DNA of 64,000 nucleotides, from NCBI RefSeq assembly GCF_900114035.1, contig NZ_FORP01000020.1, positions 1-64,000 of the forward strand, given 5' to 3'. Source of the DNA: Amycolatopsis sacchari. Its GTDB lineage: Bacteria > Actinomycetota > Actinomycetes > Mycobacteriales > Pseudonocardiaceae. The notes under the pieces were generated by a model. That model was not told where the DNA came from and did not search any database. It worked only from the letters and a program-made list of their open reading frames with translations. This document shows, one piece after another, positions 34,762 through 38,591 of this stretch. Each line of letters starts with the position of its first letter. Position 1 is the first letter of the stretch. Made by a program: the position numbers and the translations under genes.

Positions 34762-35784
34762 CTAGGAATCGCGGCGGGCGAGGAGCTGGGCCAGCGCGGC
34801 CAGCTCGGCGTGGGGGCGGTCTCGGGGGGTGGCGGCGCGGAGGTGGGCCAGCGCGCGGCCGAGCAGGATCTCGGACTGGGCTTCGCTCCACGCGCGGCCA
34901 CCCGCGCGCTCGACGAGGTCCGCCGCGTGCGCGAGCTCGTCGGGGGACAGCCCGTCCGGCGACCGGTACAGCTCCGCCAGTGCACGGCCCTCGGGCGTGC
35001 CCGACGCCAGCGCGGCCACGACGGGCAGGGATTTCTTGCGGTTGCGCAGATCCGAGAACACCGGCTTGCCCGTCACGGCCGGTTCGCCCCAGATGCCGAG
35101 CAGGTCGTCGGCGAACTGGAACGCCAGCCCGGCCTCCTCGCCGAAGCGGCCGAGCTGCCGGATCTGGTCCGGGGTGCCGCCGCCCGCCAGTGCGCCGAGC
35201 GCGCACGCGCAGCCCAGCAGCGCCCCCGTCTTGCCCGCGGCCATCTGACGGCACTCCTCGGCACCGACGAACTCGCGCCGCTCGAACTCCAGGTCCGCGC
35301 TCTGGCCCTCGACGAGGTCGAGCACCGCGCTCATGAGCACGCGCAACTGGTCCGGATGGCCCGCCAGCAGCTGGGCGGAGAGCGCGAGCAGCGCGTCCCC
35401 GGCGAGGATCGCCTGGTCGCTGCCGAACACCTTCCAGACGGTGGGGCGGTGCCGCCGGGTCTCGTCGGAGTCCATCACGTCGTCGTGCACCAGGGAGAAG
35501 TTGTGCACCAGCTCGACGGCGACCGCGGCGGGCAGGGCGGGCCGCACCGTGCCGCCCACGGCCTGCGCGGCGAGCAGGACGAGCGCGGGCCGGACCGCCT
35601 TGCCGCTGCCGCCGTCGTCGTCCCAGCCGAAGTGGTGCCACACGGGTGCCCGCATCGACGGCGGCAGCCCGGCGGCCGCCGCGCGCAGCTCCGGTTCGAC
35701 CAGCTCTCTCGCCCAGCCGAGGATCTCCCGTGCGGTCCTGGTCTCCGTCAGTGCCGTCGGTTCGGTCGGCAGTTCGATCTTCAT
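34762..35784 (-). CDS. trans-Polyprenyl diphosphate synthase, Family 2 encapsulin cargo type
   Basis: 340 aa all-helical prenyl synthase. First aspartate-rich motif DDVMD at 101-105 with DETRRHRPT, second motif DDLLG at 226-230 ([13 protein letters not shown]), and KTGALL between them. The aromatic residue five before the first motif (F96) is the kind that limits product length to about C15-C20. The ATGA overlap with the shell gene (35781-35784) ties it to the encapsulin, where this class is a known cargo. Only about 20 residues ([20 protein letters not shown]) precede the first helix, far shorter than the disordered targeting segment usual in Family 2 cargo. Confidence 0.87.
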
Positions 35785-37166
35785 CGTCCCAGCTCCACGT
35801 TCTCCAGCAGGCCCAGCGCGTCGGGCACCAGTACCGCCACCGAGTAGTACACACTGACCAAATAGGACAGAATCGCTTTGTCGTCCACGCCCATGAACCG
35901 CGCGTTGAGGCCGGGTTCGAGCTCGTCGGGCAGCCCGGGCTGGTGCAGCCCGATCACCCCCTGGCTCTTCTCCCCGGTCCGCATCGCGAGTATCGACGTC
36001 GTGTTCGCCGCCGAGACGGGGATCTTGTCGCTGGGCAGGAGCGGCACCCCGCGCCACTCCGTCACGCGGTGCCCTTCCACTTCCGTCTGCCGCGGCGTGA
36101 TCCCGCGTTTGCTGCACTCCCGGCCGAACGCGGCGATGGCACGCGGGTGGGCGAGGAAGAACGCGGTCTTCCGGCGCCGCGACAACAGCTCGTCGAGGTC
36201 GTCGGGGGTGGGCGGGCCGCTGTTCGTCTGCACCCGCTGCCGGAAGTCGACGTTGTGCAGCAACCCGAAGTCCGGGTTGGTGATCAGCTGCTGTTCCTGG
36301 CGCTCCCGCAGGGCTTCCACGGTGAGCCGCAGCTGCTGTTCGACCTGGTTCATCGGCTTGTTGAACAGGTCGGCCACGCGGGTGTGCACCCGCACCACGG
36401 TCTGCGCGACGCTCAGCTCGTACTCGCGCGGCGAAAGCTCGTAGTCCACGAAGCTGCCGGGCAGCACGGGCTCGCCGCTGTGGCCTGACGCGATGGCAAT
36501 GTCCGCCTCGCCCAGCTTGTTCTGTGGGCGCGAGGCGGCCTGCCGCAAATCGTCCACATGCGACCGAAGTGGATCCGAGCTTTCCAGCAACCGCAGGAAA
36601 TCCTCGTGACGCAACACCAGTGCCGTCACCGCTGTAAGCGCTTTCGCAGAGTGCGGCCACGTGCCCGGGGACGCGGCGAGCAGCTGCCGCCCGAGGTACT
36701 GGCCGTCGGCGAGCACCCCGAGCGACACGGGATCGCCGTACCGGCCGGACCCGACCGCGGCGACCTTCCCCGAGGCGACGACGAACCCGGCGTCGACGGG
36801 CTGTCCCGCCTCGGCGAGCAGCTCACCGGGCCGGTAGGTGCGCTGCTCGAACAGCCGGGCCACCGCCGCCAGCACCACGGGATCGGCGAACCCCCGCAGG
36901 AGCGGCAGCTCGGTGAGGCTCTCGGGCACGATCCGGACGTCGTCCGCCGTGCCGTGGTACGCCACCCGCCCCTCGCCCGTCAGGTGGCTCAGCCGCCGGT
37001 TCACCCGGTACGTGCCCGCGTCGGTGGACACCCACGGCAGCATGCGCAGCAGCCACCGCGAGCTGATCGCCCGCATCTGCGGTTCGGACTTCGTCGTCGT
37101 CGCCAGCCGTCGTGCCGCGGTCGTGCTCAGGCTCAGCCTGGCCCGCGCCTCCACTGTCGTCGTCAC
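35781..37166 (-). CDS. Family 2B encapsulin shell protein, first paralogue
   Basis: 461 aa. An N-terminal arm ([21 protein letters not shown]) leads to an inserted cyclic-nucleotide-binding domain (about 70-200; [20 protein letters not shown]). The HK97-fold capsid part follows ([62 protein letters not shown]) and ends [25 protein letters not shown]. That combination defines Family 2B. Start GTG 37166 follows AGGACGGG by about 8 bp; a TTG 9 bp upstream is too close to it. The start lies 15 bp after the second shell gene's stop, so both would be made together. Confidence 0.88.
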
Positions 37167-37181
37167 CGGGACCAACCCGTC

Positions 37182-38591
37182 CTAGCGGCCGATCTCGACG
37201 TTCTCCAGGATGCCCAGGGCATCGGGCACCAGCACCGCCGCGGAGTAGTACGCCGTGACGAGGTAGGAGATGATCGCCTTGTCGTTGATGCCCATGAACC
37301 GCACCGAAAGCCCGGGCTCGAACTCGTCCGGCAGGCCGGTCTGGTGCAGGCCGACCACGCCCTGGTTCTTCTCCCCGGCCCGCAGCAGCAGGATCGAGCT
37401 GGTCCTGGTGTCGGACACGCCGATCTTGTTGCACGGCAGGATCGGCACCCCGCGCCAGGCGGGCACCTGCTGCCCGAAGAAGTCCACATTGGAGGGATAG
37501 ACGCCGCGCGCCGAGCACTCCCTGCCGAACGCGGCGATCGTGCGCGGGTGGGCGAGGAACACCGTCGGTTCCTTCCACACCGTCGCCAGCAGGTCGTCGA
37601 GGTCGTCCGGCGTCGGCGGGCCGGAGCGGGTGTGGATGCGCTGCTCGACCGCGGCGTTGTTGAGCAGCCCGAAGTCCAGGTTGTTGATCAGCTCGTGCTC
37701 CTGCCGCTCGCGCAGCGCCTCGATGGTCAGCCGCAGCTGCTGCTCGACCTGGTTCATCGGCTTGTTGTAGAGGTCGGCGACGCGCGAGTGGACGCGCAGC
37801 ACGGTCTGCGCGACGCTCAGCTCGTACTCGCGCGGCGAAAGCTCGTAGTCCACGAAGGTGCCGGGCAGGTCCGGCTCGCCGTCGTGCCCCGACGCGAGGT
37901 CGATCGCGGCCTCACCGTAGTCGTTCTGCGGCGCGAGACGGCCCGCCCGGAAGTCCGCCACCTGCCGCTGCAGCGCCTCGGAGGACTCGTAGACCTCGTC
38001 GAAGGCCTGCTGCGGCAGCATCAGGACGGTGCACGACGTGAGGGCCTTGACCGTGTACTCCCAGATGTCCTCGGGATCGGCGAGCGTCTTGTCGCCGAAG
38101 TGGTCGCCGTTCGCGAGCACGCCGAGCGTGGTCTCGTTCCCGTACTGCCCCGGCCCGATCTTGCACACCTTGCCGTGGGCGATGAGGAAGGCCTGGTCGG
38201 AGGGGGAGCCGAACTCGACGATCACGTCGCCGGCTTCGTAGGTCTGCTGCACGAACCGGTCGGCCAGCGCGCGGAGCACGGTCTCGTCGTCGAACCCCCG
38301 CAGCAGCGGCAGCTCGGCCAGCTCCGCCGGGATCACGCTGACGTCGGTGCCGGTGCTGACGAACGTGACCCGGCCGTCGCCGACGGTGTAGGTGAGCCGG
38401 CGGTTGACCCGGTACGTGCCGCCGTCGGCCTGGACCCACGGCAGGACGCGCAGCAGCCACCGCGACGTGATGGACTGCATCTGCGGGACGGACTTCGTCG
38501 TGGTCGCGAGCTGCCGCGCCGCCGCGGTGCTCAGGCTCTGCCGCCGTTCGTTGTCCTCGGCGCGTGCCTCGGCCGATTCGGTAACGGTCAC
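37182..38591 (-). CDS. Family 2B encapsulin shell protein, second paralogue
   Basis: 469 aa, the promoter-proximal gene of the operon. Same architecture as its neighbour: arm ([21 protein letters not shown]), cyclic-nucleotide-binding domain ([20 protein letters not shown], with [11 protein letters not shown] at the phosphate-cassette position), then capsid domain ([40 protein letters not shown]) and the same C-terminal peptide [17 protein letters not shown]. The two shells are clearly paralogous but differ throughout the nucleotide-binding domain. GTG 38591 is preceded by AGGTGG at 8 bp; the GTG at 38603 overlaps that site. Confidence 0.88.

Follow-up and report, generated by a model that had tools for sequence, protein, structure and literature searches.

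Which cargo and which product belong to an encapsulin operon that encodes two shells and isoprenoid enzymes and no terpene cyclase? The question is raised by a 64,000-nucleotide (nt) stretch of the soil actinomycete Amycolatopsis sacchari (contig NZ_FORP01000020.1, positions 1 to 64,000; hereafter the window), whose minus strand carries a head-to-tail row of four coding units, i.e. the Family 2B encapsulin shells Enc1 and Enc2, a polyprenyl diphosphate synthase (PT) and an IspH reading. We propose, with a probability of roughly 0.6, that this operon encodes one half, shell and precursor supply, of a split nanocompartment for geosmin production, the cargo of which would be a geosmin synthase encoded 48 kb away. 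The proposal builds on observed gene content, motifs and co-occurrence, from which we infer mixed shell assembly, cargo loading, flux, and farnesyl diphosphate (FPP) and geosmin as the products.

The candidate cargo, a two-domain cyclase of 712 amino acids (aa), is encoded on the same contig as Enc1 and outside the window (G000:C18:86890-89028; G and L numbers label the genomes and loci compared, G000 being the source genome). Two PF19086 matches fall within its single frame; its best PDB match is the germacradienol/geosmin synthase 5DW7, with 503.9 bits over residues 2-352, and against NF041168, the model of family 2 encapsulin cargo terpene cyclases (TCs), it scored 1150.7 bits, under the cut-off of 1200. 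Between the two domains stands GPTGLGTSSGR, and the two-domain architecture is thus combined with an interdomain GPTGLGT, which has been proposed as the targeting motif of TC cargo (PMC8346489; this and the other papers are cited from the accessible parts of their texts). The initial annotation had noted the lack of a terpene cyclase and left the final product open, which is true of the operon itself, whereas elsewhere the genome encodes a putative geosmin synthase bearing the published motif.

Across genomes, the geosmin synthase tracks the shell. Within the genus, a full-length synthase was found in 13 of the 14 shell-bearing genomes and in none of the five shell-less ones (Fisher p 0.0005); among the latter, the synthase of G009 is spread over several frames, with one piece inverted, and that of G008 is reduced to fragments. 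The exception, G013, carries shells without a full-length synthase, and its locus (L051), with a degraded Enc2, no PT and an extended IspH in one open frame, is apparently decaying. At E ≤ 1e-100, and with 26 weak or partial shell hits counted as absent, 191 of 297 genomes of the family had both genes, five the shell only, four the synthase only and 97 neither; in the class, with 296 genomes and thresholds of E ≤ 1e-80 for the shell and E ≤ 1e-120 for the synthase, the corresponding numbers were 65, 8, 2 and 221. Only the HK97 part was matched in two of the eight shell-only class genomes (G302, G331) and in two of the 65 with both (G315, G468), and some of these may be Family 2A. In six genomes with one shell pair (G049, G221, G268, G183, G244 and G262, each with no other shell match among at most five scored candidates), the synthase lies 0.26-7 Mb away by linear contig distance, so the co-occurrence is not simple linkage. 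An orthologue of the synthase is located within ~5 kb of the shells in G004 and G010.

Shared ancestry or lifestyle alone, as of large sporulating genomes, could also bring shell and synthase together, with the operon being a decaying relic, and this we regard as improbable. Signs of decay do exist, such as the IspH frame breaks in G000 and G003, the PT frame break in G007, the loss of PT in G013, the failure to find IspH in the G004 and G010 stretches, and an IspG fragment in G015. However, both shells are near full-length and stop-free in 13 of the 14 genus genomes, G013 with its degraded Enc2 being the remaining one, and shell and full-length synthase are jointly missing in all five shell-less congeners. 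In addition, a promoter-like block, GTGACTGTACGG ... CGGTGCTAACGTCG (38684-38724, minus strand), lies 5′ of Enc1 and is conserved with few substitutions across the alignment of 14 genus loci, as would suit a functional promoter.

A copy resembling the targeting motif, interdomain or C-terminal, is kept in each of the 13 genus synthases. Seven carry the interdomain motif (one as GPNGLGTS), which in two is joined by a C-terminal copy, and six have only the C-terminal form xLGM(S/A)ALxLA, three of which were missed by the pattern and judged by eye; the pattern matched 16 of 20 further family synthases. Several points weigh against taking the synthase as the cargo of this operon. Its gene is not inside the operon, the C-terminal motif repeat is absent from the geosmin synthase of the window genome, and both this synthase and the window PT score slightly below the curated cargo-model cut-offs. 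The synthases of G267 and G290, genomes with no shell hit at threshold, keep the motif, which is therefore not lost together with the shell. Moreover, the co-occurrence counts ignore kinship and come without an unrelated control gene, and the link between shell and synthase could stem from a common lifestyle or from genome size.

The two shells are clearly assigned. Enc1 (37182-38591, 469 aa, GTG start with an alternative GTG at 38603) and Enc2 (35781-37166, GTG start with an alternative TTG at 37175) matched NF041163, the family 2B encapsulin shell model, over its full length (1-450 of 450) with 784.8 and 720.7 bits, respectively, at a cut-off of 400 bits, Enc2 being scored as 35781-37163; no further shell above this cut-off was found in the source genome. 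Each comprises a PF19307 SrpI-like domain and an inserted cyclic-nucleotide-binding-like domain (CBD, PF00027), the core of which spans 37983-38246 in Enc1 (residues 120-207 of a 473-aa reading) and 36579-36842 in Enc2 (residues 108-195 of the 460-aa reading from 37163), all on the minus strand, so the claim of two different shell paralogues, each with such an insertion, is borne out. Between the two, sequence identity is 70.5% for the HK97 part and 43.8% for the CBD; the best solved relatives of Enc1 are 9BJE and 9BIX (Streptomyces lydicus Enc1 and Enc2), and 9BJE also has the solved CBD closest to that of Enc1. Motif 1, published as distinguishing Enc1 from Enc2 (PMC12407261), reads TVWK in the first and RRRK in the second shell of the window. 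In 59 aligned loci, xVWK was present in all 59 first shells and a basic RR/KR in 58 second shells, the 59th having no letters at motif 1, probably because the contig of L127 ends there. As the shell pair occurs in 14 of 19 genus genomes, its side-by-side arrangement is not due to chance. A mixed Enc1/Enc2 shell is a well-founded expectation by analogy, given the S. lydicus precedent and the shared motif 1, and is not a new idea.

It had further been supposed that the shell encloses IspH as well as PT and is gated by two nucleotides through its two CBDs, a scheme which we consider highly improbable. At the CBD column that we equate with the phosphate-binding Arg of CAP, 117 of 118 aligned shells have a Trp, including the two of the window, and the remaining one has a gap. 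Also, the Family 2B CBD, although annotated as binding cyclic AMP, is reported to bind no cyclic nucleotide (PMC12407261, citing another study). Both observations disfavour two nucleotide signals or gated pores.

The Rfam family RF02735 (Sernc350) matched the strand opposite to Enc1 (38047-38551, plus strand, 178.9 bits) and Enc2 (36655-37153, plus strand, 53.8 bits), which may reflect the coding conservation only. In the sister genus Saccharopolyspora, sernc350 lies antisense to SACE_3976, a gene of the terpene cluster tpc3, which also has the terpene synthase SACE_3977; SACE_3976 is described as a regulator of the CAP family that has a cyclic-nucleotide-binding domain, and terpene metabolism and geosmin synthesis are given as probable targets of sernc350 and sernc351 (PMC3827479). 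Judged from the RF02735 match, SACE_3976 is probably an encapsulin shell.

Within the operon, Enc1 and Enc2 are separated by 15 nt, the PT start overlaps the Enc2 stop by four nt (ATGA), and the IspH ATG at 34754, preceded by AGGAG, is located 7 nt past the PT stop. The initial annotation had placed two shells, PT and IspH in a single tight array at 34762-38591; the shells, PT and their short gaps and overlap are as described, while that range stops at the PT stop codon, and IspH (33497-34754) falls outside it and has a broken frame.

Is PT itself then the cargo? As published for PT operons, the shell would enclose PT, with or without IspH, and deliver a linear prenyl diphosphate, the distant cyclase being irrelevant; we hold this to be rather unlikely here. 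The window PT (34762-35784, minus strand, 340 aa, ATG start) matched PF00348 with 199.9 bits, and its counterparts keep their place. Counting the window, 13 of the 14 genus loci have PT directly behind Enc2; its frame is broken in L050, and L051 lacks the gene. The same order holds for 39 of 40 further family loci (in L127 the contig ends), all with a shell pair, which were chosen for the highest shell scores among genomes beyond the genus, with one locus from each. PT is also named a cargo family by NF041169 (f2_encap_cargo4), which it matched with 438.8 bits, and yet the cut-off of 450 was not reached. Encapsulin PTs are described as having a disordered N-terminus of 50-100 residues (PMC8346489), whereas the window PT has a short one, with only 17 residues, Met included, ahead of the NF041169 match. 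Likewise, the distance from the start to the conserved P.LR motif was mostly 23-33 residues in the PTs of the loci read, with 37 in L109 and L115 and 48 and 38 in the shell-less L080 and L081; in L095, L101, L108, L121 and L125 it was 47-96 from the first possible start, each also having an internal ATG at short length, and the P.LR pattern was unmatched in six loci (L040, L044, L050, L083, L090 and L091). With such short N-termini, the published feature lends no support to PT as cargo, and the tracking of the shell by the geosmin synthase also speaks against a compartment centred on PT.

Enclosure of IspH was considered in the same way. On the catalytic frame, tested as 33497-34603, IspH matched PF02401 (LytB) with 316.9 bits and contains the motifs SFCAG and DATCPLV and a third one of 11 residues, presumably with the cysteines of the iron-sulphur cluster. 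The first ~50 residues, forming part of an N-terminal extension, are encoded in the frame of ATG 34754, and the LytB domain in a different one; in DNA alignment with 11 congeners, the switch falls near 34594, and compared with L039, its closest relative, the window is ~11 bases short at this point. IspH is in a single frame in 10 of the 11 congener loci compared, with L040 (G003) also frame-broken. The pieces of the window IspH are 100% identical over 49 residues and 98.9% over 364 residues to the database protein P0001 (422 aa), and very close relatives thus have the gene in uninterrupted form. Either a real mutation or deletion or an assembly error may underlie the break in the window; if it is real, full-length IspH is probably not made in the source strain, but as the genome has two further LytB (IspH) genes, IspH activity need not be lost. 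Downstream, a PPOX-type flavin mononucleotide (FMN) flavoprotein (TIGR04025, 240.6 bits) is encoded at 32835-33455 on the minus strand, 3′ of the operon; such a gene follows in 8 of 13 congener loci, and the frame of the IspH start reads stop-free into that of the flavoprotein (32835-34754, minus strand).

In Amycolatopsis and Prauserella the IspH extension begins with a conserved MxFTAAQSI(L/M/I)AA, residues 3-12 are among its best conserved parts in 10 congeners, and the structure prediction placed a low-confidence helix at residues 5-12 (predicted local distance difference test, pLDDT, ~50), separated by a linker from a folded domain at 23-112. Together with the adjacency of IspH to PT in 12 of the 14 genus loci (not found in L041 and L044), such a conserved leader with a putative separate helix would suit an enclosed enzyme. 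Nevertheless, shell-less loci (L080, L081 and L083) also have an extension, and it is absent from the 19 family IspHs examined, in most of which a start ~5 residues before the LytB domain is available. It can also be aligned with the phosphorylase portion of a phosphorylase-IspH fusion protein that the source genome encodes (PF01048 plus PF02401; L137 4074-5534, G000:C49) in a hopanoid-type cluster, with some of the gene labels there being our assumption. Across 11 extension sequences, the observed alignment score was attained in 0 to 45 of 2000 shuffles, and in none for six of the 11, and even the leader of P0001 aligns to FTGATPVLLAG of the fusion. A dedicated cargo tag is weakened by these findings. 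Instead, the extension seems to be what is left of the phosphorylase portion of an HpnG-IspH-type fusion, likely a relative of the C49 fusion, and may or may not have been reused. The grouping of the last methylerythritol phosphate (MEP) pathway step with chain elongation, as first suggested, finds partial backing in the recurrent IspH adjacency and in the IspG and DXS genes of sister operons; in the window, the IspH frame is broken, and a recognised cargo signal was found neither on IspH nor on PT.

The relatives place the operon in a wider context. IspG follows IspH in six genus loci, with a fragment in L047, and the 40 family loci comprise IspH in 19, DXS in nine, IspG in four and a cyclase in nine, between the shells in eight of these. 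A partial cyclase match is retained between the shells of L043. In L116 and L117, a two-domain cyclase with two GPTGLGT copies stands between Enc1 and Enc2. L080 (Sinosporangium) and L081 (Crossiella) contain PT, the extended IspH, DXS, a cyclase and IspG, with no encapsulin hit in 18 kb. From these gene contents, the operon looks like the encapsulin-bearing branch of secondary terpenoid clusters that carry their own MEP genes.

Under the proposed split arrangement, with the shells and the geosmin synthase encoded apart, Enc1 and Enc2 would assemble into a two-component Family 2B shell as in S. lydicus, into which the synthase, as the principal cargo, would be recruited via the interdomain GPTGLGTS. 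PT, inside or beside the shell, would make a prenyl diphosphate, most likely FPP, from isopentenyl and dimethylallyl diphosphate (IPP/DMAPP), the supply of which may be raised by IspH, and by IspG and DXS in sister operons, where the genes are intact. A bolder version can be drawn, namely that the cyclase-less PT-type two-shell operons are the shell-and-supply part of a split organelle. The shell would sort the distant geosmin synthase and additionally enclose PT and the MEP enzymes (IspH, plus the IspG and DXS of sister operons); supply, elongation and cyclisation to geosmin would then proceed in one two-component compartment, and the CBDs would sense a non-nucleotide ligand. This version is quite unlikely. 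Structures of two-component encapsulins are known but few functions, and PT-type operons have so far been without a clear product. If the assignment of the synthase is right, many ‘cyclase-less’ operons would gain a testable product, the search for cargo need not stop at the operon, and the earthy-odour compound geosmin would offer a simple readout of compartment function.

Among known systems, encapsulins are reported to be consistently present in all myxobacterial geosmin clusters (PMC12224551, a preprint), and the geosmin-encapsulin link as such is therefore already in print; in the encapsulin-geosmin literature covered, with supplements and most subscription papers outside that coverage, we found no geosmin synthase described whose gene lies apart from the shell operon. 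The shell-less terpenoid clusters L080 and L081 resemble the window system in having PT and the extended IspH, next to DXS, a cyclase and IspG, and differ in lacking an encapsulin hit. Residues 2-352 of the C18 cyclase align to germacradienol/geosmin synthase as in 5DW7 and 5DZ2, entries which represent one domain only and which we take to be from Streptomyces coelicolor. To date, 503 two-component Family 2B operons have been listed, including prenyltransferase and TC/PT types (PMC12407261), and PT operons carry precursor-supply genes (PMC8346489). The window operon resembles these types in having PT right after Enc2 and precursor-supply genes, with a TC between the shells in sister loci, and departs from them in its cyclase 48 kb off, a PT without the long disordered N-terminus and a broken IspH frame. 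With S. lydicus Sl-Enc1/Sl-Enc2 (9BJE/9BIX), which co-assemble into mixed shells with irregular tiling (PMC12407261), it shares adjacent Family 2B shells, xVWK versus RRRK at motif 1 and inserted CBDs, while the S. lydicus operon is of the xylulose-kinase type and the one described here has a prenyl synthase and IspH. The two-shell operon is thus real but of a published kind, and its interest is in the reinterpretation of its cargo.

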